The notes below the pieces were generated by a model. The model ran no database searches, was not told where the DNA came from, and was given only the letters and a program-made list of their open reading frames with translations. A stretch of DNA of 39,098 bases from Loktanella salsilacus. GTDB taxonomy: Bacteria; Pseudomonadota; Alphaproteobacteria; Rhodobacterales; Rhodobacteraceae. How positions within the stretch are numbered: position 1 is the first letter of the stretch; the number at the start of each line of letters is the position of its first letter. The stretch spans positions 1 through 39,098 of the forward strand of contig NZ_FOTF01000028.1 in NCBI RefSeq assembly GCF_900114485.1, in the 5' to 3' direction. Shown here one piece after another: positions 71 through 21,710 of this stretch. Both the position numbers and the translations under genes were made by a program.

Positions 71-187
71 GTGTGGTGATCATAGCGTGAGCAAAACACC
101 CGATCCCATCCCGAACTCGGCAGTTAAGTGCCACCGCGCTGATGGTACTGCGTCTTAAGACGTGGGAGAGTAAGTCATTGCCACACC
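71..187 (+). rRNA. rrf: 5S ribosomal RNA
   Basis: About 117 nt with the conserved 5S core CCCGATCCCATCCCGAACTC (101-120) and the loop-E/helix-IV stretch TGGTACTGCGTCTTAAGACG. The ends GTGTGG and CCACAC pair as helix I. The sequence is the alphaproteobacterial (Rhodobacteraceae) type. It is followed by tRNA-fMet, the usual order at the end of a rrn operon in this family. The ends may be off by a few bases. Confidence 0.95.
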
Positions 188-8453: not shown

Positions 8454-9599
8454 TTACTTGTTCCGATATTTGCTCAGATGTGTCGGGCCTACATCATCAA
8501 AGGTTGAAACGCCAAGCTGCCCTAAGGCGCGGACCAGTTCCAGATGTAGGATCTCGAATGCCTTTTGTGCGCCAGCGTCACCACCCGCGCCGACGCCGTA
8601 GGCAAACGCGCGGCCTGCGAATGCAAAGTCTGCGCCAAGCGCCTTGGCGCGCAACATATCAGCGCCGCGCCGGATGCCGCTATCGACGATGACGGTCATG
8701 CGCCCCGCTACTGCATCTGCGATAGCGGGGAGGGCCTCAATCGTGGGTGGGCCAAAATCCACCTGACGCCCGCCGTGATTGGACACAACAATTCCATCGC
8801 AGCCCAATTCGGCGCAGGTCACGGCGTCTTGCGCGTGCAAAATGCCTTTGACCAGGAGGCGACCCTTCCAGCGAGCTCGCAATCGTTTGAGGTCATCCCA
8901 CGTGAACCCTGGCGTGATCAGGGTTTTTTGCACCTCTGCATAAGAGGTCGCGCCTTGTAGCAGGTTTGCGTAGTTGGCGACGTTCGGTGCGCCATATTTC
9001 AGGCTCCTCAGCGCCCACCGCGGGTTCATCGCGCATTGCAGGATGACGTCGGGCGTAAAGCGGAACGGCACGGCAAGCTGGTTGCGGATATCGCGGTCGC
9101 GCTTGCCTGCGGCGGGCACATCCGCCGTAACCATTAAGGTGGTGTAGCCCGCAGCTTCTGCCCGAGCGATCAGGCCTTCTGTCACTGCCGCATCGCTTGA
9201 GACATAGAGCTGGAACCAGCCGTTGCCGTCGGCGGCTTCGGCCAATGCCTCTAACGTGGTCGAAGAAGCCGAACTTGCCACATAGGGGATGTTCTGCGCC
9301 TTGCACAGCCGCGCGAGCGTCAGATCGGCTCCGGGCCAAAAGGCGTTGAGCATACCGATCGGGGCCATGCCGAAAGGCGCATCGTAGGTTTGGCCAAAGA
9401 CAGTTGCGGTTGTGTCGATCTTGGACACATCCACCATATAGCGCGGGGTCAGTTCGACCTCTTCAAACGCCTCACTATTGCGACGCATATTGCGTTCGTT
9501 TTCCGCACCGCCATCGACCAGATCAAAGGCGAAACGCGGAATTCGGCGTTTGGCACGCAGTCGCAGATCGTTGATAGAGGCGGCGCGATCTAGTCCCAT
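8454..9599 (-). CDS. FMN-dependent alpha-hydroxy acid dehydrogenase, LldD-like
   Basis: A 381-residue member of the L-lactate dehydrogenase/glycolate oxidase family, which oxidises L-2-hydroxy acids with FMN and passes electrons to quinone or oxygen. Visible landmarks are FAFDLVDGGAENERN near residue 23, FQLYV (Y132), the FMN-contacting VKGILHAQDA (K251), the catalytic SNHGGRQ (H275, R278) and IVDSGIRRG near 304-312. All active-site residues are present except that the usual first Tyr of the substrate pocket reads as Phe (FAFD). Start at the ATG overlapping the upstream stop (TGATG), so it is coupled to the SDR before it. As last gene of the operon it plausibly oxidises the L-lactate released by the FAH-type hydrolase encoded at 20856-21710. 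Confidence 0.88.
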   Translation of the reverse strand: MGLDRAASINDLRLRAKRRIPRFAFDLVDGGAENERNMRRNSEAFEEVELTPRYMVDVSKIDTTATVFGQTYDAPFGMAPIGMLNAFWPGADLTLARLCKAQNIPYVASSASSTTLEALAEAADGNGWFQLYVSSDAAVTEGLIARAEAAGYTTLMVTADVPAAGKRDRDIRNQLAVPFRFTPDVILQCAMNPRWALRSLKYGAPNVANYANLLQGATSYAEVQKTLITPGFTWDDLKRLRARWKGRLLVKGILHAQDAVTCAELGCDGIVVSNHGGRQVDFGPPTIEALPAIADAVAGRMTVIVDSGIRRGADMLRAKALGADFAFAGRAFAYGVGAGGDAGAQKAFEILHLELVRALGQLGVSTFDDVGPTHLSKYRNK

Positions 9600-10342
9600 C
9601 AGATCGACCACCCGCCATCGACAGCAAAGGCTTGCCCTGTGGTGAAAGCTGCCATGTCTCCGGCCAGATAACACACCATCTCGGCGATTTCTTCGGGTTG
9701 GCCTAGGCGGCCCATGGGTTGGCGTTCCTTGAAGGCGGCAAGGGCCTTGTCAAAGTCACCGGTGGCGGCAAGCCGGTCGTTCAGCGACGGGCTTTGCACG
9801 GTGCCGGGACAGATGGCGTTGCAGCGGATGCCGTCTTTGACGAAGTCAGCGGCAATCGCCTTGGTCATGCCGATGATCGCCGCCTTTGAGGCACCATAGG
9901 CAAAGCGGCGTGGCGCGCCTTTTTCACTGGACACGATAGAGGCGATATTGATGATCGACCCCGCGCCCTTGTCCAGCATCCCTGGCAGCACCGCTTTGGT
10001 GATGCGATACATGGCCTTGGCATTCAGGTTAAACGCACGGTCCCAGACGGCGTCGTCACAATCAAGAATTGTGCCGTCATGCACCCAGCCTGCGCAGTTC
10101 AACAGAATGTCCACGGGTGCGACAGATGCGACAAGGGCTTCCACCGCCGCGGCATCCAGCACGTCCAGTTGCATGCCTATGATGTTAGGTGACGTATCAG
10201 CCAGTTCAGCAACCAAAGAGCCATCCAGATCAGTGGCGATTACCTGCACGCCGCGCGCCGCGAGCGCTTGCGCGCTGGCACGGCCGATGCCTGCACCCGC
10301 AGCGGTAATCAGTGCAGTTTTGCCTTTCATTGAGTGTCCCAT
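9599..10342 (-). CDS. SDR, 2-keto-3-deoxy-L-fuconate dehydrogenase-like
   Basis: A 247-residue classical short-chain dehydrogenase. The nucleotide-binding motif AAGAGIGRASA is near residue 14. NCAGWVHDGTILDC, the catalytic Ser in NIASIVSSEKG, YGASK (Tyr-x3-Lys) and NAICPGTVQSPSL follow. The phrases WVHDGTILDCDDAVWDRAFNLN and GIRCNAICPGTVQSPSL match the subgroup that includes bacterial L-KDF dehydrogenase and human BDH2/DHRS6. That enzyme oxidises 2-keto-3-deoxy-L-fuconate at C4 to the 2,4-diketo acid, the substrate of the FAH hydrolase made from the divergent operon. Start ATG at 10342 with AGGAGG 7 nt upstream; a longer open frame overlaps the next gene and is a shadow. Confidence 0.85.
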   Translation of the reverse strand: MGHSMKGKTALITAAGAGIGRASAQALAARGVQVIATDLDGSLVAELADTSPNIIGMQLDVLDAAAVEALVASVAPVDILLNCAGWVHDGTILDCDDAVWDRAFNLNAKAMYRITKAVLPGMLDKGAGSIINIASIVSSEKGAPRRFAYGASKAAIIGMTKAIAADFVKDGIRCNAICPGTVQSPSLNDRLAATGDFDKALAAFKERQPMGRLGQPEEIAEMVCYLAGDMAAFTTGQAFAVDGGWSI

Positions 10343-10352
10343 AGAGTTCCTC

Positions 10353-11117
10353 CTAACGGGCGAGCCAGCCGCCATCGACGGTGACGACGCTGCCGTGGCA
10401 ATAATTGGCGGCGTCAGACGCCAGAAAAACCGCAGCGCCTGCGATCTCGGACGGATCGGCAAAGCGGCCCGCCGGAATGCGTTCCAACAGCGCTTTAGAT
10501 CGGTCGGAATCGTCGCGCAGCGCCTGAGTGTTGTCTGTGGCGGTATAGCCGGGTGCGATGCTGTTGACGTTGACACCGTATGGCGCCCATTCGTTGCACA
10601 GGGCCTTGGTTAGGCCGACGACCGCATGTTTGCTGCTGACATAGGCCGGCACGCGCAGGCCGCCTTGCGACGCAAGCACAGAGGACACGATGATAATTTT
10701 GCCTGACCCTTGCGCCACCATCAGTTTGCCCGCCGCCTGCGATAGCAACCAAACGGAATCGAGGTTGACCGACAGCACGCGCCGCCAATCTTCCAGCGGC
10801 ATCTCCGTGCTGTCTTCGCGATGGATGATCCCGGCGTTGTTAACCAGAATATCAAAGCCGTCTAAGGCATTGCTGGCAAAGTCGACGACGTCTTTGGCTG
10901 CAGCCTGATCCATGCCGTTGAAATCTGCCTGCACGGCGAAACCTTTGACGCCCAACGCCCTAATTTTGGCGAGGGTGTCGTCGGGTTGGTGGCTGCGATA
11001 GGTCAGCGCCACATCGGCCCCGGCGGCGGCAAGGCCGAGGGCAATGCCCTCGCCGATGCCAGTTGCCCCGCCGGTGACCAGTGCTTTGCGGCCGGTCAGG
11101 TCAAACGGGTTGCCCAT
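10353..11117 (-). CDS. SDR, KduD-like 2-deoxy-D-gluconate 3-dehydrogenase
   Basis: A 254-residue classical SDR. It follows the KduD pattern through most of its length: FDLTGRKALVTGGATGIGEG, NNAGIIHREDSTEMPLEDW, the catalytic IVSSVLASQGGLRVPAYVSSK, NEWAPYGVNVNSIAPGYTATDNTQALR, RIPAGRFADPSEIAG and the C-terminal VTVDGGWLAR. KduD enzymes interconvert keto-deoxy sugar acids with NAD(H) in uronic acid breakdown, and related enzymes accept other deoxy acids. The start at 11117 lies 1 nt after the stop of the M24 gene. Together with the neighbouring SDRs it points to stepwise oxidation of a sugar-derived acid; the exact substrate is not readable from sequence. Confidence 0.85.
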   Translation of the reverse strand: MGNPFDLTGRKALVTGGATGIGEGIALGLAAAGADVALTYRSHQPDDTLAKIRALGVKGFAVQADFNGMDQAAAKDVVDFASNALDGFDILVNNAGIIHREDSTEMPLEDWRRVLSVNLDSVWLLSQAAGKLMVAQGSGKIIIVSSVLASQGGLRVPAYVSSKHAVVGLTKALCNEWAPYGVNVNSIAPGYTATDNTQALRDDSDRSKALLERIPAGRFADPSEIAGAAVFLASDAANYCHGSVVTVDGGWLAR

Positions 11118-11118
11118 A

Positions 11119-12429
11119 TCAGTACCGGTTCGCAATCGGCAGCTCTTCGGCAGGGAAGAGGCTGATGACCTCGCAACCATTTTCTGTCACCACGACCTCT
11201 TCCTCGATCCTTGCGGCGGAATAGCCGTCGGTTGCGGGGCAGTAGGTTTCCAAGGCGAAGACCATGCCGGTCTTGATTTCCATGGGGTGATCCATCGACA
11301 CAGCACGGCTGATGATGGGCCGCTCATGTAGCGCCAGACCAAGGCCATGACCGAATTGTAGACCAAAGGCTTGATCTTCATTCGCAAAGCCAAGTTCCTG
11401 AGCTGTTGGCCAAACCGCTGCCACCTTGTCGGTGGAAACGCCCGGTTTGATCATCGCGATAGAGGCATCGATCCATTCGCGTGCCTTGGTGTAGGCGTCA
11501 GTTTGCGACGGTGTCGCGCGGCCGACGTTGAACGTTCGGTAGTAACACGTCCGATACCCTTGATAGGATTGCAGGATGTCAAAGAAAGCCTGATCGCCGG
11601 GTCGGATTAGGCGGTCGGTAAAGTTGTGTGGGTGCGGGTTGCAGCGTTCGCCGGAGATGGCGTTGACCGCCTCGACGTCGTCTGATCCCATCTCGTAAAG
11701 CAGCTTGTTGGACAGCGCGACAATGTCGTTTTCGCGGATGCCCGGCTTCAGCTCTTCATAGATCATGTGATAGACGCCATCGACCATCGCTGCCGCTTGC
11801 GTCAAAAGCTGGATTTCGTCTGTATTCTTGATCTCGCGCGCTGCCAGCATGATCTGTTGGCCATCGACCACGTTGAGGCCTTCTTGTTGCAGCGCGTGGA
11901 ACATTGCGGTTTCAGCATAATCCACACCAACGGGCATATCGCCCATACCGGCATCGCGGATCAATCCGGCGATCTGCTTGGCATACTTCTGCATCAGGCC
12001 GAATTCCGGCGGGATGGTGCCGCGCATGCCGACGACACCGGCAAGGCAATGGCTCGGCTCCAGCCAGTCGGAGTGGCGCTTGTGGTGCTCTGCCGCGGAG
12101 CCGAAATCCCAAACATAAGGGCTGTCGTCACCTGTCAGCAGGCAGAAACGGCACATCTTGTCGCGTTCCCATTCGCCGATTTTGGTGGCCGAAACGTAAC
12201 GGATGTTGTTCACATCAAACAACAGCAGTGTGCCCGCCTCTGAATTTTGTAGGGACTGGCGGGTCCGCGCAAGGCGGTAGCGACGCAGGCGGTCGTGGTC
12301 GATACGGCGTTCGAAATCCACGGACATGTGGCCATGCGCTGGCAGTTTGTCGCGCCATTCCCAGTTGGGTTGAAGATCCATTGGGGTAAGCAGGTTCGGC
12401 ATGAGGGCATTGCCCGGACGTTCTGACAT
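11119..12429 (-). CDS. M24-fold (DddP/creatinase-like) protein, altered metal site
   Basis: A 436-residue protein with a creatinase-like N-terminal domain (TLLLFDVNNIRYVSATKIGEWE near residue 67) and a C-terminal pita-bread domain. Of the five usual M24 metal ligands I see D284 (AFFDILQ), H361 (QFGHGLGL), E394 (FALETY) and E409 (ARIEEEVVVTENG). The second Asp is Cys295 in GYRTCYYRTF, where the family normally has GY..D..RTF. H369 (ALHERP) is kept. The family includes Xaa-Pro peptidases, creatinase, ectoine hydrolase and the DMSP lyase DddP, which share the NIRY N-terminal phrase. With SDRs on both sides a role on a sugar-derived or amide substrate is more likely than peptide cleavage. SD AAGGAG 6 nt upstream. 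Confidence 0.8.
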   Translation of the reverse strand: MSERPGNALMPNLLTPMDLQPNWEWRDKLPAHGHMSVDFERRIDHDRLRRYRLARTRQSLQNSEAGTLLLFDVNNIRYVSATKIGEWERDKMCRFCLLTGDDSPYVWDFGSAAEHHKRHSDWLEPSHCLAGVVGMRGTIPPEFGLMQKYAKQIAGLIRDAGMGDMPVGVDYAETAMFHALQQEGLNVVDGQQIMLAAREIKNTDEIQLLTQAAAMVDGVYHMIYEELKPGIRENDIVALSNKLLYEMGSDDVEAVNAISGERCNPHPHNFTDRLIRPGDQAFFDILQSYQGYRTCYYRTFNVGRATPSQTDAYTKAREWIDASIAMIKPGVSTDKVAAVWPTAQELGFANEDQAFGLQFGHGLGLALHERPIISRAVSMDHPMEIKTGMVFALETYCPATDGYSAARIEEEVVVTENGCEVISLFPAEELPIANRY

Positions 12430-12489: not shown

Positions 12490-13299
12490 TTACTGGATGC
12501 ACCAGCCGCCATCGACGTGGATCATCTGGCCGGTCATGTAATCGCTGTCGTCGGACGCGAGGAATGATGCGGTGCCGACGATGTCTTTGGGATAGGACAC
12601 CCGCTTGATCTGCAGTGCATCGCGCACGATGTCGTCGTAGGCTTGACCTTCTTTTTCCTTGAAGCCGATATCGACAAGGTCCTTGTCCAGCTGTTCCCAA
12701 AGCGGTGTGACAACAACGCCGGGCGCGTAGCCGTTCACAGTGATGCCATGTTCGGACAGGCCGATTGCGCCACAATGGGTCAGGGCAAGGCAGCCGTATT
12801 TCGAAGTGCAATAAACGGTGACGTCCACCAGCGGCTTGCGCGATGCGATGGATCCGACATTGATGAGCTTGTAAGGATGGGCTTCCATCGGGCCTTGGGC
12901 GATCATCTGGCGGGCAGTTTCCTGCATGCCCAGCCACATCGCCTTTGTATTGACGTTCATGATCATGTCCCAGTTGTCTTCATCGATATCCATGAAGAAG
13001 CGGGGCTTGTTCAGGCCGGCATTGAAGACACCAACATTGATCGACCCAAAGGCGGCGACGGTTGCCGCCACGGCAGAGGCATTGTCTTCACGCTTGGTGA
13101 CATCCATTTTGACCGCGATGGCCTTGCCGTTGCCGGCTGCATTAATCTCGTCCGCGACGGCTTGCGCCATATCAAGGTCCAGATCGCCGATACAGACGTT
13201 TGCACCTTGCTCTGCAAAGGATCGGGCGTTGGCCTCGCCCATGCCGCGGGCGGCACCGGTGATAAGAATGTTTTTACCTTTGAGGCGGTTGGGGTCCAT
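12490..13299 (-). CDS. SDR, polyol/sugar dehydrogenase-like
   Basis: A 269-residue classical SDR: NILITGAARGMGEANA near residue 11, NAGLNKPRFFMDIDEDNW, the catalytic VGSIASRKPL, YCTSKYGCLALTH, and the ending YMTGQMIHVDGGW. The segment HGITVNGYAPGVVVTPLWEQLDKDL resembles bacterial sorbitol/polyol dehydrogenases (SmoS type), which oxidise polyols or aldoses with NAD. It is closely related to the SDR in the divergent operon (16406-17203), so the locus has two paralogues, perhaps acting on successive or stereoisomeric substrates. SD GGAGGAG 6 nt before the ATG at 13299. It lies 24 bp after the regulator gene and starts the enzyme part of the leftward operon. Confidence 0.85.
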   Translation of the reverse strand: MDPNRLKGKNILITGAARGMGEANARSFAEQGANVCIGDLDLDMAQAVADEINAAGNGKAIAVKMDVTKREDNASAVAATVAAFGSINVGVFNAGLNKPRFFMDIDEDNWDMIMNVNTKAMWLGMQETARQMIAQGPMEAHPYKLINVGSIASRKPLVDVTVYCTSKYGCLALTHCGAIGLSEHGITVNGYAPGVVVTPLWEQLDKDLVDIGFKEKEGQAYDDIVRDALQIKRVSYPKDIVGTASFLASDDSDYMTGQMIHVDGGWCIQ

Positions 13300-13323: not shown

Positions 13324-15138
13324 CTATGGTGGGGATAGGGTTGCGTCGGCTCTCTCCTGCGCGCGGCGCAATGCGTTTTGCGGGGTGATGATCCCGCGCA
13401 GCATGTCGTGAAATTCTTCTCCGCAGATCTGGATGATCTCGTTGATTTCGGGGATCGGGGGGCGCGGCCAGAACTGCAATTCGTCGCGCCAAGACATGGC
13501 ATCCACGGCTTCGAATATGGGTGAAAGGCGCCGTACATCGGGGTCTGCGCCCACGGAATAACGCGGGTTTGTCCGGCTGCCGTTCTGCACATACAGCTTT
13601 TGTGCTGGGGCCGATGTGAAGACCAGCAAGGCCTCTACCGCTGCGGGGATACGCTCTTTCGGCAAGTTGGCGGGAATGCCCATCACATAGCCACCGACGG
13701 GTGCAATCGCGGCCCCATTCGGGCCAGCGGGATGAGGTAGATATCCGGTCTGATCCTTGGCGGGCGACGCGTCATCAAGCTCGAAATAGGGCGCAAGAAG
13801 CGTGTAGCCGTAAGCCATCGCAATGCGCCCGGCGGCGTAAGGACGGATGCGTTCGTACCACGACATCGACAGGATATCGGGGGGCGAATAGGCCAGCAGT
13901 TCTTTTAGAAACTCAGCCGCTTGCAAACCCGCTGGCGTATCAATCGTGAACCTGTATGCGCGGTCCGCTAGACGCTGCGTATCATATCCACCTGCATTCG
14001 GTGTTAGGTCAAGAATGGGTTGCCCAAAGTCGGCCAAGGTCATCAGAACGGTGTGGCCCAAAGCGGTCCCGCGTGCAGCGTTCCATGCAATGCCATGCAG
14101 GCCGCGTTGTGGATCGTGCAGTGCCTTTGCCGCTTCTAGCAGGCCCTGGGTTGTGGTGGGCGGGACAAGACCCGCCTGTGCAAACAAGTCCTTGCGGTAG
14201 AACAAAAGCTCTGGCGTTGTTTGGGCCGGGATGCCGTATGCACGACCGCCCCAATGGGCTGCTTGCCAACCGGCTGTATGGAAATCCGATGGATCAATGC
14301 GGGCAATATCCATTATCTCATCAAGCGGCATCAGGACATTCTGTTCCGCAAACCCACCGACCCAAGGAAGGTCAACGGCGATGATGTCGTAACTGCTCGA
14401 CTTGCGACTTGCGTTGCGCATGGTTTCTTCGTGTAGGCGGTCAATCGAAAACGCGCGTTGGTGAATTTGCGTGCCGATTGTCTGTTCGAATTGCCGCTTA
14501 AGGTTTTCCATCACCATGAAGGTCGGATCACCATGCACCAGAACCCGCAAGCCACCCGCAAGTTTAAGCGACTGGGCCAGAACCTTCATCGGGGGGATCG
14601 ATTTGGCGTTCAGGTACGACCCGCCAAAGTAGTAGTCGGCTGACTCTGACGATGCTGCATCACCAAACTGCGCAGTCGCAAGGCGTCGCACGCGGTTTGT
14701 CAGCTGGGTCCATTGATCCAGCAAAACAACACTGGGATGCAGGGAAAAGCTTTTCCCTGTCGCTGTGCGGGGGCGTTGGTCAATCAGGCCCGCCTCTTGC
14801 ATGTCCTTGATGCGGCGATTGGCGGTTGCATATGGCGCGCGGCTGGCACCGATCAGCGATGTCATCGTGATCAGCCGGCCTTCTAGATGGCCGCGGATCA
14901 GATGCATTGAAATGCGCAGGTTCGGGGTCGATGCAAACAGGGCGGATGCGTTTTCCAGCTCGTCGCCTAGGTCCTCAATGAAGGACAGCGTGCGAAGCAT
15001 GTCGGCCTTCGCCCGAGGCGGCATGAGTTGATTGAAATGCTCCCCCCTCATGACGTTCATACTCCTGATCGCTGCCTTCCCTTTGGTGTGGCGTTTGCCA
15101 CGCGGTGTATTCAAAACGGATGATTTTACAGTCTTCAT
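13324..15138 (-). CDS. Winged-helix regulator fused to an ABC solute-binding domain
   Basis: A 604-residue two-part protein. Residues about 45-160 look like a MarR-type winged helix (RISMHLIRGHLEGRLITMTSLIGASRAPYATANRRIKDMQEAGLIDQRPRTATGKSFSLHPS). From about 195 to 590 it reads as a family-1 extracellular solute-binding protein: GLRVLVHGDPTF, YDIIAVDLPWVGGFAEQNVLMPLDEI, YGIPAQTTPELLFYRKDLFAQAGLVPPTT, and WYERIRPYAAGRIAMAYGYT. There is no signal peptide and the wHTH comes first, so it should act in the cytoplasm as a sugar-sensing transcription factor, not as a transport component. Start 15138 has AAGG 8 nt upstream; ATG 15060 or 15051 (after AGGAG) are alternatives and would shorten only the basic N-terminal tail. 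It is divergent from the ABC operon and heads the catabolic operon. Confidence 0.85.
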   Translation of the reverse strand: MKTVKSSVLNTPRGKRHTKGKAAIRSMNVMRGEHFNQLMPPRAKADMLRTLSFIEDLGDELENASALFASTPNLRISMHLIRGHLEGRLITMTSLIGASRAPYATANRRIKDMQEAGLIDQRPRTATGKSFSLHPSVVLLDQWTQLTNRVRRLATAQFGDAASSESADYYFGGSYLNAKSIPPMKVLAQSLKLAGGLRVLVHGDPTFMVMENLKRQFEQTIGTQIHQRAFSIDRLHEETMRNASRKSSSYDIIAVDLPWVGGFAEQNVLMPLDEIMDIARIDPSDFHTAGWQAAHWGGRAYGIPAQTTPELLFYRKDLFAQAGLVPPTTTQGLLEAAKALHDPQRGLHGIAWNAARGTALGHTVLMTLADFGQPILDLTPNAGGYDTQRLADRAYRFTIDTPAGLQAAEFLKELLAYSPPDILSMSWYERIRPYAAGRIAMAYGYTLLAPYFELDDASPAKDQTGYLPHPAGPNGAAIAPVGGYVMGIPANLPKERIPAAVEALLVFTSAPAQKLYVQNGSRTNPRYSVGADPDVRRLSPIFEAVDAMSWRDELQFWPRPPIPEINEIIQICGEEFHDMLRGIITPQNALRRAQERADATLSPP

Positions 15139-15359
15139 GCGTTGCACCTTATATTGCGGTGGGGGTGGCCCTAGAGAGTATCGCAAATATATCGAGAACG
15201 GATATAATTTCATCCAGAATGAATAATATTGGAGGGGCCAACCCTAAACGGCACCGGCATGGTAACGGTGATCATACCGGTTCGCCGGGTGGTGATTCCC
15301 CCTTGGGAGAGAGTGGGGGAGAGGCTTAAACGTCTAATAAGTTCTTGGAGGAGATCACT
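15139..15359. promoter_or_regulatory. Divergent promoter region of the catabolic locus
   Basis: This 221-bp gap separates the regulator gene from the binding-protein gene and must contain promoters for both operons. An AT-rich stretch at 15181-15235 includes TATAAT at 15203-15208; I see no good -35 for it. The 27-bp imperfect palindrome at 15254-15280 lies between this stretch and the binding-protein gene. GGAGGAG at 15347-15353 is the Shine-Dalgarno sequence of the binding-protein gene. Confidence 0.6.
15254..15280. promoter_or_regulatory. Imperfect palindrome, candidate operator
   Basis: CCGGCATGGTAAC (15254-15266), a central G and GTGATCATACCGG (15268-15280) pair at 10 of 13 positions, including CCGG/CCGG at the tips and ATG/CAT inside. 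It lies about 80 bp before the binding-protein start and about 116 bp before the regulator start. A dimeric regulator, most likely the winged-helix fusion protein encoded next to it, could bind here. Confidence 0.5.
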
Positions 15360-16328
15360 ATGACACTACGCACAGTCCTGACCGCCACGGCTGCAACAGC
15401 AGCACTGACCGTTGCAGGTGCAGCACATGCAGAGGCCCACGGCCCGATGCGCATCGGCATTACGCAGAACAACGTCGGCGTGGACAGCTATCAGACAACC
15501 TATGAAAAGGCGTTCATCGCGGCGGCCGAAGCCAATGACAAAGTCGAAGTCGTGGTTCTGGACGCCGGCGGCGACGTCGCTCGTCAGATCGCCCAGATGG
15601 AAGACCTGATCCAGCAGGAAGTCGACGCAATCATCATCTGGCCAACAAACGGCGAGGCGGTCATCCCCGCTGTGCGCAAGGCACATTCTGCCGGCATTCC
15701 GGTCGTCGTGACCAACTCTAATATTGCGGAAGCCGGCTTTGACTTTGTCGCGACATTCTCTGGCCCGGACAACGTCACGCAGGGATCGCGCTCTGCCGAG
15801 ATCATGTGCGATCGCTTCAAGGCGCTGGGTATTGAGAACGAAGCCCAAGTCGTGCAGATTTCCGGCCAGCCCGGCTATACCACAGCGATCGAACGTCAGC
15901 AGGGTTTTGACGACCGTCTGCCAGAAGTTTGCCCGAACGTGACACTGGTCGAAACGCAGCCAGGCGATTGGAACCGTGAAAAGTCCCAGCAGGTGATGGA
16001 AGCGTTCCTTGTAAAGTATGACAATATTGACGGCGTCTATGCGGGCGACGACAATATGGGCGTTGGCGCGCTGAACGCAGCGCTGGCAGCAGACCGTGCC
16101 GAAGGGATCACTTTTGTCGGCGCGACCAACTTTTCGGTCGGCTACGAGGCGATGGAACGCGGCGAGTATTGGGGGTCGATCTACCAGTCTCCGGTTGATG
16201 ACGCCGAAGCAGCGCTGCAGTCCGCCATCGAACTTGTCAGCGGTACGGAACTGCCGTTCCTGAACTACTTTGACACGCCCAAGATTACGCAGGACAACAT
16301 GTCAGAGTTCACAAAGCCGGTGTTCTAA
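15360..16328 (+). CDS. Ribose-type ABC sugar-binding protein
   Basis: A 322-residue periplasmic protein of the Peripla_BP_4 (class I, RbsB-like) family. The signal peptide (MTLRTVLTATAATAALTVAG) is probably cleaved after AHA near residue 24. The mature chain has the typical start MRIGITQNNVGVDSYQTTYEKAF, VVVLDAGGDVARQIAQMEDLIQQEVDAIIIWPTN, GIPVVVTNSNI, and the hinge-side GVYAGDDNMGVGALNAA. Start ATG at 15360 with GGAGGAG 6 nt upstream. It is the first gene of the rightward operon and delivers the sugar to the two permeases downstream. A hairpin after its stop would let it be made in excess over the membrane parts. Confidence 0.93.
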   Translation: MTLRTVLTATAATAALTVAGAAHAEAHGPMRIGITQNNVGVDSYQTTYEKAFIAAAEANDKVEVVVLDAGGDVARQIAQMEDLIQQEVDAIIIWPTNGEAVIPAVRKAHSAGIPVVVTNSNIAEAGFDFVATFSGPDNVTQGSRSAEIMCDRFKALGIENEAQVVQISGQPGYTTAIERQQGFDDRLPEVCPNVTLVETQPGDWNREKSQQVMEAFLVKYDNIDGVYAGDDNMGVGALNAALAADRAEGITFVGATNFSVGYEAMERGEYWGSIYQSPVDDAEAALQSAIELVSGTELPFLNYFDTPKITQDNMSEFTKPVF

Positions 16329-16405: not shown

Positions 16406-17203
16406 ATGGGACGTGTAACTGGACGGTCATGTCTTGTGACCGGCGCAGCGCAGGGCATTGGCCGCGCCATCGCAGAGGCGCTGCTGGATGAAGGTGCCGA
16501 CGTTTGTTTTGCGGACATCAACGGCGAAAAGGTCGCCCAAGTGGCCGGGGCGAATGTCGACAGGGCCAAACAGCATGGCGGAAAGGTGACCCACGCACGG
16601 GTCGACGTGACGGACCGCGCGTCCGTGAAGGCGATGATCGCCCATACGGTGCAGGTCTTCGGCAAGCTTGATGTGAAATTCAACAATGCTGGCGTAAACC
16701 GCCCGATGAATTTTCTGGATGTCACCGAAGAGAACTGGAATTTCATTATGGGGGTCAACGGCTTGGGTTGTATGATCGGGATGCAGGAAGCAGCCCTTCA
16801 AATGATCGCCCAAGGCACGGGCGGCAAGATCATTAATACCGCCTCCATCGCGAGCCGGCAGGGGTTTGACAACGTGGCACCCTATTGTGCCAGCAAATTC
16901 GCCGTCGTGGCGCTGACCCAATCGGGCGCGCGCGATCTGGCGAAACATAACATAACTGTCACGGGCTTTGCACCCGGGGTGGTGGCCACGGAAATGTGGG
17001 ACCAGGTCGACCAGGATCTGATGGAGATTGGCGCTGCCGAAAGGCCAGGTCAGGCGATGGAGGAGTTTTCGTCTGAAATCCTGCGCGGGCGTGTTGCAAA
17101 AACTGAGGATATTACTGGGACGACGACGTATCTGGCGTCGAAAGACAGTGACTACATGACCGGACAAATCGTGATGATCGACGGTGGGATGACCCTAGTC
17201 TGA
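16406..17203 (+). CDS. SDR, polyol/sugar dehydrogenase-like (paralogue)
   Basis: A 265-residue classical SDR: SCLVTGAAQGIGRAIAEALL near residue 9, NNAGVNRPMNFLDVTEENW, the catalytic NTASIASRQG, YCASKFAVVALTQSG, NITVTGFAPGVVATEMWDQVDQDL, ending YMTGQIVMIDGG. It shares these phrases and a similar length with the SDR at 12490-13299. Both resemble sorbitol/polyol dehydrogenases, so an NAD-linked oxidation of the imported substrate is likely. Its place between the binding protein and the permeases ties it to the transporter. Start ATG at 16406 with GGGGG about 7 nt upstream. Confidence 0.85.
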   Translation: MGRVTGRSCLVTGAAQGIGRAIAEALLDEGADVCFADINGEKVAQVAGANVDRAKQHGGKVTHARVDVTDRASVKAMIAHTVQVFGKLDVKFNNAGVNRPMNFLDVTEENWNFIMGVNGLGCMIGMQEAALQMIAQGTGGKIINTASIASRQGFDNVAPYCASKFAVVALTQSGARDLAKHNITVTGFAPGVVATEMWDQVDQDLMEIGAAERPGQAMEEFSSEILRGRVAKTEDITGTTTYLASKDSDYMTGQIVMIDGGMTLV

Positions 17204-17248: not shown

Positions 17249-18223
17249 ATGGCGAGCATGTCGAAAGCAGACATCGGACGCATCTTGGCACGGCAGGGCA
17301 TTTTAATCGCGTTTGCCGTGTTCATCATCGGTTTTACACTGGTCAATGAACGGTTTTTAAGCCCTGACAATGTGATGGGCGTGGTGCGGTCTTCGGCCAT
17401 TCTGGGGGTCATGGCGCTAGGCGTGACCTTTGTCGTTATCAGCGGTAACCTTGATTTGTCTGTCGGGTCGATGATGTCGTTTTCGACCATCGTAGTTTTA
17501 GATTTGCATGACAAAATTGGTCCCGCGCTGGCCATTCCCGCCATGTTCGCAATGACGCTGTGCCTTGGGGCATTCATCGGATTTCTGGTGGGCTACCTCA
17601 AGCTGAATTCCCTGATTGTGACGCTTGGCATGTTGTCGGCGATCCACGGCCTGACGCTGACCTATTCGGGCGGCCAGAACATGGACATCGTCGACAAAGA
17701 AGGCACTTGGTTCAGCGTATTCGGCCAAGGGTCTGCACTTGGAATTCCGGTGCCGATCCTGATTTTCGTCGCTTTGGCAGCGCTTTTGGGGATCATTTTG
17801 GCCAAGACCCCGTTTGGGCGAAAAGTCTATGCTGTGGGCGGCAACGGTACCGCCGCAACCTTTTCAGGCATCAAACGCGGGCGCATTGTGTTCCTGTGTT
17901 ACGTGATGTCGGCCTTTTGCGTGGCCGTCGCGGGGCTGATCCAAGCCAGCCGGTCGATGGGGTCGCAAAACACCGTCGGGCAAGGGCTGGAGCTTGACGT
18001 GTTGGCTGCCGTGATCCTGGGGGGCGCGTCGCTACTGGGCGGGTCTGGCACGATTTTCAAAACCGTCATCGGCGTGCTGATCCTTGGGTTTATCCAGAAT
18101 GGTCTGCTGCTGGTCGGCCTTCAATTCTATGTCCAGTTCGTTGTGACATGGGTCATCATCATCCTTGCGGTCTGGCTGGATATTGCGGCCAAACGCGGCA
18201 AGCTTTGGTCAAACATCGCGTAG
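17249..18223 (+). CDS. ABC sugar permease, RbsC family (first)
   Basis: A 324-residue inner-membrane protein with about 8-10 hydrophobic spans, starting at residue 17 (GILIAFAVFIIGFTLV). RbsC-family signatures are present: GVTFVVISGNLDLSVGSMM, the loop NSLIVTLGMLSAIHGL, the cytoplasmic TPFGRKVYAVGGNGTAATFSGI (contact with the ATPase) and GLELDVLAAVILGGASLLGGSGT. SD AGGAGGGG ahead of the ATG. It pairs with the second, different permease 12 bp downstream, so the channel is probably a heterodimer. Confidence 0.92.
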   Translation: MASMSKADIGRILARQGILIAFAVFIIGFTLVNERFLSPDNVMGVVRSSAILGVMALGVTFVVISGNLDLSVGSMMSFSTIVVLDLHDKIGPALAIPAMFAMTLCLGAFIGFLVGYLKLNSLIVTLGMLSAIHGLTLTYSGGQNMDIVDKEGTWFSVFGQGSALGIPVPILIFVALAALLGIILAKTPFGRKVYAVGGNGTAATFSGIKRGRIVFLCYVMSAFCVAVAGLIQASRSMGSQNTVGQGLELDVLAAVILGGASLLGGSGTIFKTVIGVLILGFIQNGLLLVGLQFYVQFVVTWVIIILAVWLDIAAKRGKLWSNIA

Positions 18224-18235
18224 GAGAGCGGAAAA

Positions 18236-19237
18236 ATGGAAGCTGGAAAACTGTCCAAATTTCTCAAGAACGGCGCGATATGGGGCTTTATCCTGTTCGA
18301 ACTGATCTTCTTTAGCGTCGCGGGCGAATTCATGTCGCTGTCTGACAAGGCGTTTATGGATGTCGACAATATGCTGCTGCTGCTGAAGCAATCGGCGCCG
18401 ATCGGCATTATCGCCGTCGGCATGACGATCATCATGATCAACGGTAATATCGACCTAAGCGTTGGTGCCATTTTTGCGCTTTCGGCGGTGATCTTGCTGG
18501 ATAGCATGACGTGGCCCGTCTTTGCGGACCTTGGCGACTGGGTGATCCCCGTGTCATGGACGCTGGCGCTGCTGACGGGTGTTGTGTCGGGGGCCATCAA
18601 CGGGCTGATCGTCTGGAAAACCGGGGTTGATGCCTTCATCGTGACGCTTGGGTCTATGCTGGGCTTTCGCGGTCTGGTGTTCATGTACAACGGTGAAAAC
18701 CCCACATCGAGCCTCAACTGGACGCTGGTGGATTTTGCCGAGGCACAGTTCCTTGGATTTCACACTGCGACATGGTTTCTGGCCGTCGTCACGGTTGTCA
18801 TTTGGTACGTGATGACCCGCACGGTCCATGGCCGCAACGCCTATGCCATCGGCGACAATCGAGAGGCGGCGGTAAACGCGGGCATCAAGGTCGGCCCGCA
18901 CATGCTGATCAACTTTATGATCATCGGCTTTTTGGCGGCCTTGTCGGCGGTCGTGTTCTATTCAGAATCCGGATCGGTCAATCCAAACGACGGGCAACTG
19001 TACGAGCTGTGGGTGATCACCGCCGTGGTGCTGGGCGGCACCAAACTGACCGGCGGGGCAGGGTCGATAATATCCACGCTTGGTGGCGTTCTGGCCATCC
19101 AGCTGCTGCGCAAAGGGCTGGGTCACATCGGTGCAGACACATCGACCGTGAACCTTGTGATCGGCCTAATCCTGATCGCGGTGCTGTTTTTGGATCGTCA
19201 GCTGAATACCCGGGGGAAAGAGGAGTTGAAGATATGA
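18236..19237 (+). CDS. ABC sugar permease, RbsC family (second)
   Basis: A 333-residue polytopic membrane protein with the same signatures as its neighbour: GMTIIMINGNIDLSVGAIFALS, DAFIVTLGSMLGFRGLVFMY, the ATPase-facing TVHGRNAYAIGDNREAAVNAGI, and LYELWVITAVVLGGTKLTGGAGS. It starts 12 bp after the first permease, and its stop overlaps the ATPase start (ATGA). Two distinct permeases in one RbsABC-type operon are seen in some alphaproteobacterial sugar/polyol transporters. Confidence 0.92.
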   Translation: MEAGKLSKFLKNGAIWGFILFELIFFSVAGEFMSLSDKAFMDVDNMLLLLKQSAPIGIIAVGMTIIMINGNIDLSVGAIFALSAVILLDSMTWPVFADLGDWVIPVSWTLALLTGVVSGAINGLIVWKTGVDAFIVTLGSMLGFRGLVFMYNGENPTSSLNWTLVDFAEAQFLGFHTATWFLAVVTVVIWYVMTRTVHGRNAYAIGDNREAAVNAGIKVGPHMLINFMIIGFLAALSAVVFYSESGSVNPNDGQLYELWVITAVVLGGTKLTGGAGSIISTLGGVLAIQLLRKGLGHIGADTSTVNLVIGLILIAVLFLDRQLNTRGKEELKI

Positions 19238-20748
19238 CCGAGCAAAGACCCGCTTTGCGCCTAGAAGGTATCGTCAAAACCTTTCCCGGTGTGCGCGCGC
19301 TTGATGACGTTTCATTCGCGGTCATGCCGGGTGAAGTTCATGCCTTGATGGGCGAAAACGGCGCTGGAAAATCGACGTTGATGAAGGTCTTGGGCGGTAT
19401 TCACCAACCTGACGAAGGCCGGATCATCGTTGAAGAAGTACCAACGGTTATGACCTCGCCCTTGCAGGCGAAATCCAAGGGGATCGTTTTTATCCACCAA
19501 GAACTGAGCCTTGCCGAAGAATTAACTGTTGCAGAGAATATTTATCTGGGGGAATTGCCGCGCCGGTCTTTCGGGCGGGTGGACTGGGCGACGCTTTATG
19601 CACAGACCGATGCGATCCTTGCAAAGCTCAAGGTTAGCTTCAACGCGAAAACCATCGTTGGGGATTTATCTATCGCCAACCAGCAAATGGTGGAAATCGC
19701 CCGTGCGCTGACCGTCGATGCCAAGGCTGTCATTTTTGATGAACCCACAGCATCGCTGACCGACGCGGAAAAGGTTGTGCTGTTTGATGTGATCTCAGAC
19801 CTGCAAAGTCAGGGTGTGGGGATCATCTATATCTCGCACCGGATGGAAGAGATTTTCAAGATCACCGACCGGATCAGCGTGCTGCGCGACGGGTCCTATC
19901 GCGGCACACTGGTCACCTGCGACACCAACGAAGAAGAGGTCACGCAACTGATGATCGGGCGCGCGCTTGATCTGTCGCGCAATGAATCCCACCACGCCTT
20001 GGGTGATGTCGCGCTAGAGGTACGTGGCCTGTCGTGCGGTAAGCTGTACAAGGACGTAAGTTTCTCGGTCCGCCGCGGCGAGGTTTTGGGCTTTTACGGT
20101 CTAGTCGGCGCAGGGCGCACCGAGATCGTGGAAACGCTGTTTGGGTTGCGCGACCCCGACGCTGGCGCGATCCTGTTAGATGGCCAAGAAGTGCGCGTGT
20201 CTTCCCCCGCCGATGCGATTAGCAAAGGCATTTCACTGGTGCCCGAGGACCGCAAAGGTCAGGGCCTTGTGCTGGGGATGAACTGCCGGGACAACATGAC
20301 CTTGCCGCAGATCGGTGATTTGTCCTCCGGTCCCTTCGTGTCACCCAACGCCGAAACCGCAATCTTTGATAAATACAAAGAAAAGCTCGATATTCGCACG
20401 CCCGGCTGGAAACAGACGGTCGGCAATCTATCGGGCGGCAATCAGCAAAAGATCGTCATCGGCAAATGGTTGTCGATGCATCCCAAAGTGCTGATCGTGG
20501 ATGAGCCGACACGGGGCATTGATGTGGGGTCGAAATCCGAAATTCACAATCTGATCCGCGAATTGGCTGCACAAGGCTATGCCGTGATCGTGGTCAGCTC
20601 TGAGATGCCCGAAGTGCTGCATGTCAGCGACCGGATCGTCGCGATGTTCGCGGGCCGGGTGATGCGGATGTTTACCTCTGATGAAGTGACCGAAGAAAGC
20701 CTGATACAGGCGATTTCCGGCATCACCAGCACGGATAAGGTTGCGTAG
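19234..20748 (+). CDS. ABC sugar ATPase, RbsA-type double domain
   Basis: A 504-residue cytoplasmic ATPase with two nucleotide-binding domains. Domain 1: GENGAGKSTLM (Walker A, about residues 40-50), LSIANQQMVEIARAL as a divergent signature, and VIFDEPTASLTD (Walker B). Domain 2: GLVGAGRTEIVE in place of a normal Walker A, LSGGNQQKIVIGKWL, and LIVDEPTRGIDVGSKSEI. The degenerate second P-loop is the rule in RbsA/MglA/XylG proteins, so it is not damage. It powers the permease pair encoded just upstream, to which it is coupled by an ATGA overlap. A longer frame upstream is a shadow of the permease. Confidence 0.95.
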   Translation: MTEQRPALRLEGIVKTFPGVRALDDVSFAVMPGEVHALMGENGAGKSTLMKVLGGIHQPDEGRIIVEEVPTVMTSPLQAKSKGIVFIHQELSLAEELTVAENIYLGELPRRSFGRVDWATLYAQTDAILAKLKVSFNAKTIVGDLSIANQQMVEIARALTVDAKAVIFDEPTASLTDAEKVVLFDVISDLQSQGVGIIYISHRMEEIFKITDRISVLRDGSYRGTLVTCDTNEEEVTQLMIGRALDLSRNESHHALGDVALEVRGLSCGKLYKDVSFSVRRGEVLGFYGLVGAGRTEIVETLFGLRDPDAGAILLDGQEVRVSSPADAISKGISLVPEDRKGQGLVLGMNCRDNMTLPQIGDLSSGPFVSPNAETAIFDKYKEKLDIRTPGWKQTVGNLSGGNQQKIVIGKWLSMHPKVLIVDEPTRGIDVGSKSEIHNLIRELAAQGYAVIVVSSEMPEVLHVSDRIVAMFAGRVMRMFTSDEVTEESLIQAISGITSTDKVA

Positions 20749-20855: not shown

Positions 20856-21710
20856 ATGAAACTTCTCCGTTATGGCGCGCCTGGTGCCGAAAAACCCGGA
20901 CTTTTGGATACCGCTGGCCGTGTACGTGATCTGTCGGGTGTCGTTGCCGATATTGCAGGCGATACTTTGCGACCCGCTGGCCTGAAAGCCCTGCGTGCGC
21001 TGGATCCGGAAACGTTGCCGCTGGTTGAAGGCACGCCGCAAGATGATTTGCGCCTTGGCGCGTGTGTTGGCAATATCGGAAAATTCATCTGCATCGGCCT
21101 GAATTACGCCGACCACGCCGCAGAGGCCGGCATGCCAATTCCGCAAGAGCCTATTATTTTCAACAAATGGACGTCTGCGGTAGTTGGCCCGAATGATGGC
21201 ATTCAAATTCCGCGCGGATCGGCAAAAACAGATTGGGAGGTTGAACTTGGTGTCGTCATCGGCCAACCAGGCTCCTATATCGACGAGGCAAACGCGATGG
21301 ACCATGTCGCTGGTTTTTGCGTCATCAACGATGTGTCAGAGCGTGATTTCCAGCTGAATCGCGCAGGTACATGGGACAAGGGCAAGGGCTGTGACACGTT
21401 TGGGCCGACAGGTCCGTGGCTAGTCACGCCTGATGAAATTGCAGACATGGACAACATGGACATGTGGCTGGATGTGGATGGCAAGCGGATGCAGACCGGA
21501 TCGACGGCGACACTGATTTTCAAAATTCCGCACCTGATTTCCTATTGCAGCCAATTCATGAGCCTGCAGGCGGGTGATGTAATCTCCACCGGCACGCCGC
21601 CGGGTGTTGGCATGGGGCAAAAGCCGCAGCAATTCCTGCATGGCGGTGAAGTCGTGACTTTGGGCATTGCGGGTTTGGGTGCGCAGAAATCAAAAGTATT
21701 GGCGGCCTGA
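20856..21710 (+). CDS. FAH-family hydrolase, 2,4-diketo-3-deoxy-L-fuconate type
   Basis: A 284-residue fumarylacetoacetate-hydrolase-fold protein. The C-terminal FAH domain begins near residue 75 with KFICIGLNYADHAAEAG. Metal ligands E128 and E130 (TDWEVELGVVIG) and D159 (CVINDVSERDFQ) are present, as are PIIFNKWTSAVVGPND, GTWDKGKGCDTFGPTGPWLV and DVISTGTPPGVGMGQKP. The N-terminal MKLLRYG...PGLLDTAGRVRDLS and the KGCDTFGP phrase match the subgroup that cleaves 2,4-diketo-3-deoxy-L-fuconate to pyruvate and L-lactate; annotation as ureidoglycolate lyase is common but less likely. SD AGGACAGG ahead of the ATG. It follows the transporter by about 107 bp and complements the KDF-dehydrogenase-like SDR and LldD-like enzyme of the divergent operon. 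Confidence 0.87.
   Translation: MKLLRYGAPGAEKPGLLDTAGRVRDLSGVVADIAGDTLRPAGLKALRALDPETLPLVEGTPQDDLRLGACVGNIGKFICIGLNYADHAAEAGMPIPQEPIIFNKWTSAVVGPNDGIQIPRGSAKTDWEVELGVVIGQPGSYIDEANAMDHVAGFCVINDVSERDFQLNRAGTWDKGKGCDTFGPTGPWLVTPDEIADMDNMDMWLDVDGKRMQTGSTATLIFKIPHLISYCSQFMSLQAGDVISTGTPPGVGMGQKPQQFLHGGEVVTLGIAGLGAQKSKVLAA

Follow-up and report, generated by a model that had tools for sequence, protein, structure and literature searches.

Transcriptional regulators can use solute-binding protein (SBP) domains as their sensors, as the available part of PMC9602780 remarks in general terms. SgrR of Escherichia coli and DsvR of Vibrio cholerae combine an N-terminal helix-turn-helix (HTH) with a C-terminal solute-binding domain and are connected with sugar-related genes, and SgrR negatively autoregulates (PMC13060122, available part). 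LysR-type regulators consist of a DNA-binding domain and a periplasmic-binding-protein-like II effector domain (PMC5882156, available part). In LacI/GalR regulators, a periplasmic-binding-protein domain acts as intracellular sugar sensor, and in engineered biosensors an ABC-transporter binding protein was joined to a DNA-binding domain for the same role (both from the available part of PMC6079105).

The regulator gene analyzed here, REG, lies in a stretch of 39,098 nt from Loktanella salsilacus, the whole of which is referred to as the window (Table 1). Its product is a genuine fusion, in which a basic N-terminal tail is followed by a MarR-like winged helix and a complete SBP_bac_1 domain (i.e. 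a family-1 SBP). As far as the sources cited above describe them, REG resembles the SgrR family in combining an HTH and a solute-binding domain in a probable regulator of sugar-related genes, the LysR-type regulators in joining a DNA-binding domain to a periplasmic-binding-protein-like II effector domain, and LacI/GalR in the proposed use of a periplasmic-binding-protein domain as intracellular sugar sensor. The domains themselves differ. SgrR is built from SgrR_N (PF12793) and SBP_bac_5, neither of which was found in REG at E ≤ 10 in the Pfam scan, whereas REG carries a MarR_2-like domain and SBP_bac_1. The effector domain of LysR comprises about 200 aa and is not a full SBP, unlike the REG sensor; no LysR Pfam model (HTH or substrate domain) was found in REG. 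LacI has a type I fold and another HTH, unlike the SBP_bac_1 and MarR-like domains of REG, and the Pfam scan of REG matched neither the LacI HTH nor a Peripla_BP (type I) domain. Btr-type AraC regulators of Bacillus likewise carry an SBP domain fused to a DNA-binding domain, but with an AraC-type HTH and an SBP of a siderophore-binding class. The engineered biosensors are synthetic in the part of their description available, whereas REG is natural and conserved. Members of the MarR family are typically small proteins without a separate sensor domain, whereas REG encodes 604 aa including a 400-aa SBP domain.

A fusion of a family-1 SBP and a winged helix was not found in the open PMC literature among the matches listed, which is weak evidence of absence because most subscription papers lie outside that scope. 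The available parts of PMC7017128, PMC4021124, and PMC4103551 list SgrR_N as a transcription factor domain and hold nothing further on the REG architecture. Given this absence from the matches listed, and since the defining domains of SgrR, LacI, and LysR were not found in REG, we call the combination of a MarR-like winged helix with a full SBP_bac_1 domain new and the principle of an SBP as sensor known. A preliminary description had regarded the protein as a parallel invention to LacI-type regulators that is rarely discussed; this is right for the particular combination, as far as the open PMC literature goes, but not for the principle, which is familiar from SgrR, LysR, and the engineered fusions.

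Table 1. Features of the REG locus (positions in the window; residues refer to the REG protein).
Feature	Position	Strand	Remarks
REG	13324..15138	-	604 aa; winged helix + SBP_bac_1 fusion; relatives mostly named 'extracellular solute-binding protein'
N-terminal tail, residues 1-40	15019..15138	-	basic; low-confidence (disordered); conserved start; second start-like codon at residue 27
MarR-like winged-helix domain, residues 38-162	14653..15027	-	AlphaFold2 model, Foldseek, Pfam on split-out domains
Elements of the winged-helix domain	REG residues: helices 72-85, 92-99, 103-115; wing 119-135; long flanking helices 41-64, 137-158		from the model of the domain
Family-1 solute-binding (type II periplasmic binding) domain, residues 197-601	13336..14550	-	full length
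Third, weaker ortholog repeat (TGTtCAaaaTG..), place of	15156..15170		34 bp from operator 1, towards REG; degenerate in the window
Predicted operator 1, TATCGAGAACGGATA	15190..15204		consensus TATCCA-N3-TGGATA, 2 mismatches
Predicted operator 2, CATCCAGAATGAATA	15211..15225		2 mismatches; exactly 21 bp from operator 1
27-bp imperfect palindrome (preliminary description)	15254..15280		not conserved; left arm contains the -10-like box
CATGGT, conserved CAnnnT, -10-like	15258..15263	+	constant spacing to operator 2; inferred as likely transporter-operon promoter box
Exported SBP of divergent CUT2 transporter (Peripla_BP_4, type I fold)	15360..16328	+
SDR dehydrogenase SDR4	16406..17203	+	Pfam, NCBIfam
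CUT2 permease 1	17249..18223	+	Pfam, NCBIfam
CUT2 permease 2	18236..19237	+	Pfam, NCBIfam
CUT2 ATPase (RbsA/AraG-like)	19225..20748	+	start 19225 inferred from domain onset in a longer ORF
FAH-family hydrolase	20856..21710	+	closest among matches listed: 2,4-didehydro-3-deoxy-L-rhamnonate hydrolase, 408 bits, cut-off 500
SDR dehydrogenase SDR3	12490..13299	-	directly downstream of REG
M24-family enzyme	11119..12429	-	part of conserved module; DddP 124 bits vs cut-off 600, only match listed
Two SDRs (one KduD-like) and an FMN-dependent, L-lactate-dehydrogenase-like enzyme	8454..11117	-

When the whole protein was scanned (in its 629-aa ORF version), no Pfam model matched the N-terminal part of REG. 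N-domains were also scanned separately (65 in total, from the window and 64 orthologs, with matches counted at E ≤ 1). MarR_2 then matched 63 of the 65 and HTH_24 matched 59, with a best value of 2.3e-7; for the window domain, MarR_2 reached only E 0.033 and 14.8 bits (cut-off 27). The AlphaFold2 model of residues 38-162 (pLDDT 86.6) displayed winged-helix topology, with a long helix, two further helices, the recognition helix, a two-stranded wing, and a second long helix in this order, i.e. a MarR-like fold with flanking helices. Among the 50 best PDB matches of these residues in Foldseek, 46 were MarR-family proteins, as judged by title (PefR, MexR, MepR, HucR, and similar titles, which we take to denote this family), and the remaining four were other DNA-binding proteins; the matches had E values of 0.004-0.08 and probabilities of 0.69-1.00, with weak TM scores of only about 0.3-0.44. 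A winged-helix profile searched against PDB sequences gave chance-level matches (best 0.16; two of the seven listed were named MarR). The N-domain is kept as protein in all 65 aligned sequences. Taken together, this evidence supports the modeled winged helix, which no single score does.

The C-terminal part matched SBP_bac_1 with 8.6e-27 and 95.4 bits, above the curated cut-off of 26, and SBP_bac_8 with 2.1e-22 (both in the scan of the longer 629-aa ORF). The best phmmer match of the REG protein was 5iai (1.6e-28), and Foldseek with the full-length AlphaFold2 model (pLDDT 73.8) placed sugar-binding proteins first (5iai, 1.4e-25; 1eu8, 1.7e-24; 6dtq, 7.4e-23). The ortholog profile matches 5iai along 400 positions. 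This protein, Arad_9887 of Agrobacterium radiobacter, is the closest solved relative of the REG sensor domain; it is described as an ABC-transporter solute-binding protein and, unlike REG, matches without an N-terminal DNA-binding domain. Many positions of the SBP domain are invariant across the 65 aligned proteins. The SBP of the adjacent transporter belongs to another class (Peripla_BP_4), and REG was therefore not made by copying the cognate SBP.

The REG start MKTVKSS is backed by conservation across orthologs; an alternative, longer ORF of 629 aa begins at 15213. Across 80 orthologs and the window, a common pattern at the start is M..S.SS..N, from which about 28 residues lead to a second start-like codon. 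In REG this is the codon of residue 27 (15058-15060), at which ATG, GTG, or TTG occurs in 79 of the 81 sequences. Possibly, it provides an alternative translation start, which could yield a protein without the basic tail. The first 30 residues of REG carry a net charge of +8. The highest mean hydropathy for any 12 of the first 45 residues was -0.07 in the window protein, compared with 1.57 in the exported SBP next door; over the 81 sequences, the median was -0.09 and the highest value 1.34 (near the start of one ortholog). By hydropathy, the window copy thus has no hydrophobic N-terminal segment that could form a signal peptide, and the protein is expected in the cytoplasm.

Synteny was counted in 80 orthologous loci of at least 48% identity. 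A CUT2-type SBP gene diverges from REG in 79 of these, followed by SDR4 (71/80) and two permease genes (75/80 and 74/80); on the other side of REG, SDR3 is present in 79 and the M24 gene in 74 loci. Missing genes were mostly located near contig ends (for M24, five out of six within about 1 kb), except for four cases of SDR4 and one of M24. In all of the best 80 loci, the REG ORF is full length (602-616 aa). The main claims of the preliminary description, i.e. a winged helix fused to a full-length family-1 SBP, no signal peptide, and a divergent position, therefore hold up, and the same domain order recurs in other genomes.

Aligned intergenic regions (the window and 79 loci, 80 in total; L069 was left out because of a contig end) show two copies of the motif TATCCA-N3-TGGATA. 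In an alignment-free count, 77 of the 80 intergenic regions had a best site with at most two mismatches (20 single-base shuffles averaged 0.45 such regions, with at most 2), and in 72 the two best sites were exactly 21 bp apart. At 14.0 and 16.6, the scores of the window operators are lower than the median (18.5). We also scanned 295 Rhodobacteraceae genomes for the tandem at up to three mismatches, a search that does not start from the gene and for which the window tandem, with four mismatches, falls short of the threshold. The tandem was detected in 15 genomes, at one site each, and the reversed-pattern control gave 0. All 15 tandems lie between a REG ortholog and a CUT2 SBP gene, and REG is present in all 15 genomes, once in fragments. 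In contrast, single sites with at most two mismatches in the genome of L. salsilacus are at chance level (64, control 65). For this reason, we rely solely on the tandem with its location and conservation, and single sites do not allow a regulon to be defined outside the locus.

More distant relatives were also inspected for the motif. In Skermanella (49% identity), three repeats with scores of 16-17 are found upstream of the REG relative, not at the 21-bp spacing; the Shinella plasmid relative has a weak site (score 8.7), and no good site was found upstream of six more distant plasmid relatives (L085, L086, and L088-L091). The tandem is kept at 21 bp in G565, a genome of another class with a 54% identical regulator. 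Twelve wider regions with REG relatives were scanned for sites scoring above 16. Of the 12 sites obtained, eight were intergenic, all in four module-bearing loci, and four inside coding sequences were background. In these loci (L139, L140, L143, and L144; regulators 33-54% identical), strong sites occur in intergenic regions next to transporter, SDR3, or M24 genes, and in two of the four loci they are away from the regulator gene. The tandem spacing is 20 bp in L143 and L144. In two of the four loci, with 42% and 48% identical regulators, the regulator gene lies behind or within the transporter operon, and the strong sites, 20 bp apart, sit between the transporter SBP and SDR3 genes; one of these genomes has a further strong site upstream of the M24 gene. 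A 1.4-Mb genome with a 33% identical regulator has sites scoring 18.6 between regulator and SBP genes and before SDR3, and among the three relatives from 1.4-Mb genomes, a strong AT-rich site is near the gene in two and none in L103. No intergenic site above 16 was found in the seven regions that have paralogs without the SDR3-M24 pair (L141, L142, L145-L148, and L150) or for L149, which has an M24 relative; a Pfam match at 1e-5 was not found for the L149 fragment (a 33% relative). The site follows REG together with the catabolic module. The simplest reading of these sequences is that the predicted site is bound by this ortholog group and that the paralogs have diverged.

The preliminary description had also invoked the 27-bp palindrome in support of a local regulator, a point that we do not retain. 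It pairs at 10 of 13 positions, a level reached by 6 of 200 shuffles of the 221-bp intergenic region. Ten pairs are attained in only 2 of 80 orthologous intergenic regions (the window and a 99% identical MAG), and the palindrome was rejected as operator; the conserved tandem sits elsewhere, at 15190-15225.

Altogether, a cytoplasmic one-component transcription regulator with an SBP as sensor and a tandem operator at its divergent locus is the explanation that we prefer overall, and with considerable confidence. REG would then very probably be an intracellular sensor controlling the neighboring sugar-uptake and breakdown operon, much as first described. Its MarR-like winged helix would bind the tandem TATCCA-N3-TGGATA pair between the divergent genes, with the long flanking helices possibly forming a dimer. 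The ligand of the non-exported family-1 SBP domain may be the sugar or polyol taken up, or an early product of its breakdown; 'Venus flytrap' closure of the domain could change DNA binding or promoter contact. The outcome would be ligand-dependent activation of transporter and catabolic genes together with autorepression of REG.

This direction of control appears as the likeliest logic, by a modest degree and from site position alone, because the sites lie both upstream of the -10-like box and over the predicted promoter of REG. The C, A, and T of CAnnnT are conserved at 96, 95, and 94%, respectively, at +32, +33, and +37 from the end of operator 2, without gaps, and a G at +8 at 88%. If CAnnnT is the -10 box, the operator centers fall at about -52 and -73 relative to the transporter operon, which are activator-like positions. 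Alternatively, the same protein and operator could form a classical repressor, in which ligand-free binding blocks both its own and the transporter promoter and the ligand releases it. Many MarR-type regulators are repressors; a single promoter-like match, against 0.4 expected from shuffles, was obtained in the region, which is directed towards REG and overlaps the operators, and operator 1 is 51-55 bp from the REG start codon in 77 of 80 loci. Such a repressor is conceivable, if rather less probable, since, for the transporter operon, the conserved -10-like box begins 32 bp beyond the end of the sites, an arrangement expected of an activator.

Other explanations concern the protein or its site. 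That the tandem belongs to a different regulator, with the fusion protein binding elsewhere, would agree with the missing site in relatives with other neighbors, but it is unlikely in view of the tandems found solely beside REG (15/15 from 295 genomes) and of their retention in G565, or as three single repeats in Skermanella. Slightly less likely still, the SBP domain might sense no small molecule and instead dock onto another protein, e.g. a part of the transporter. Its class, which differs from that of the adjacent SBP and so speaks against a copy of the cognate one, would fit this proposal, whereas the full length of the domain, its many invariant positions, and its match to sugar-binding proteins over 400 positions argue against it. 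Finally, REG could be an SBP that is exported and whose N-terminus was mis-called or fused by chance, as the name 'extracellular solute-binding protein' on 26 of the 34 plasmid records matching at least 80% of REG and the hydropathy maximum of 1.34 in one of 81 sequences might suggest. We regard this as very improbable, given the N-domain conserved as protein in 65 of 65 sequences, the window copy devoid of a hydrophobic segment, and the absence of a CUT1 permease among the ten neighboring genes scanned. The cytoplasmic regulator with an SBP sensor thus remains our preferred reading.

In a scan of genome contigs from 84,980 species, 303 pattern matches were obtained. At E ≤ 1e-3, a relative is encoded by 254 of them; their N-domains were checked in part only, and the best 80 of the 254 loci were kept. 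Matches at E ≤ 1e-30 occurred in 15 of 101 related genomes, and matches at E ≤ 1e-25 in 9 of 385 and 6 of 398 genomes (the own genome included in each count; some of the matches are limited to the SBP part, and for the two latter counts no more than three candidates were scored in any genome). A REG relative also occurs in G565, a genome of another class. Of the plasmid records, 826 match the REG query somewhere, mostly over part of it, and 34 over at least 80%. Ten of the 40 plasmid loci listed were examined. Eight relatives among them (24-49% identity, at least 84% coverage) adjoin differing operons, including (i) sugar ABC genes with a divergent SBP in Skermanella, Shinella, and Paraburkholderia; (ii) a CUT1-type transporter in Agrobacterium and Aminobacter; (iii) intradiol dioxygenase and maleylacetate reductase genes in Rhizobium, Sinorhizobium, and Aminobacter; and (iv) dehydrogenases and an ABC transporter in L. 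salsilacus. A match in Roseinatronobacter (L092), with 433 aa and a coverage of 63%, has the appearance of an ordinary SBP. Taken together, the genes next to L086, L087, L088, L089, and L091 include those for intradiol dioxygenase, maleylacetate reductase, 2,3-butanediol dehydrogenase, and Gfo/Idh/MocA proteins, which suggests that the REG family covers further classes of ligand.

There is perhaps an even chance that these proteins form a large undescribed family, in which a complete family-1 SBP acts as intracellular sensor behind a MarR-like domain and controls different sugar, polyol, and aromatic catabolic operons in alpha- and some betaproteobacteria, even in 1.4-Mb genomes, as a ligand-dependent activator with tandem operators two helical turns apart, and which its 'extracellular solute-binding protein' name has hidden. 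At least 80 loci (254 candidates) carry REG, and annotated copies bear a name with the wrong cell compartment that conceals the regulator. For a conserved catabolic module found in marine bacteria, the analysis provides both a predicted operator and a route to the substrate, because the regulator holds its own binding protein, which can be screened for ligands. REG moreover offers a naturally occurring blueprint for coupling an ABC binding protein to a DNA-binding domain, so far built by hand according to the available part of PMC6079105.

The sequences of the neighboring genes point to a sugar, deoxy-sugar, or polyol as substrate class of the operon, since they encode the transporter, four SDRs, an FMN-dependent dehydrogenase, a FAH hydrolase, and a DddP-like M24 enzyme. 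Permeases encoded by the ten neighboring genes scanned are of CUT2 type only; the permeases and the ATPase have several CUT2 systems among the matches listed, all of them below cut-off, and NCBIfam gave no match at or above cut-off for the neighbor proteins, again among the matches listed. In other genomes, the conserved module carries 2-oxoacid-dehydrogenase-type genes. As the neighbor matches are below cut-off and relatives have other enzymes, no single substrate is claimed. An assignment of the M24 enzyme as DddP was rejected, its 124 bits being far below the 600-bit cut-off; its nearest solved relatives are 4s01, 4rzy, and 4s00 ('Peptidase M24', about 85 bits), presumably DddP structures.

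Some further features were noted. Where the rest is rearranged, the M24 gene stays with SDR3 and REG (L139, L140, L143, and L144). REG relatives occur in three species of one genus with 1.4-Mb genomes (L101-L103 and L140), and in L140 the relative is found together with SDR3, M24, and a Peripla_BP_4 transporter. Apparent GC-rich inverted repeats (ACCGG-TTCG-CCGGGT, then CCCCC...GGGGG) at 15275-15330, in the stretch that separates the -10-like box from the SBP start, recur in relatives, as seen in the alignment. In Phaeobacter, the REG locus is on plasmids of 60-82 kb; that of Phaeobacter inhibens (L113) has ThuA and 2-oxoacid dehydrogenase genes in place of the FAH and FMN genes of the window.
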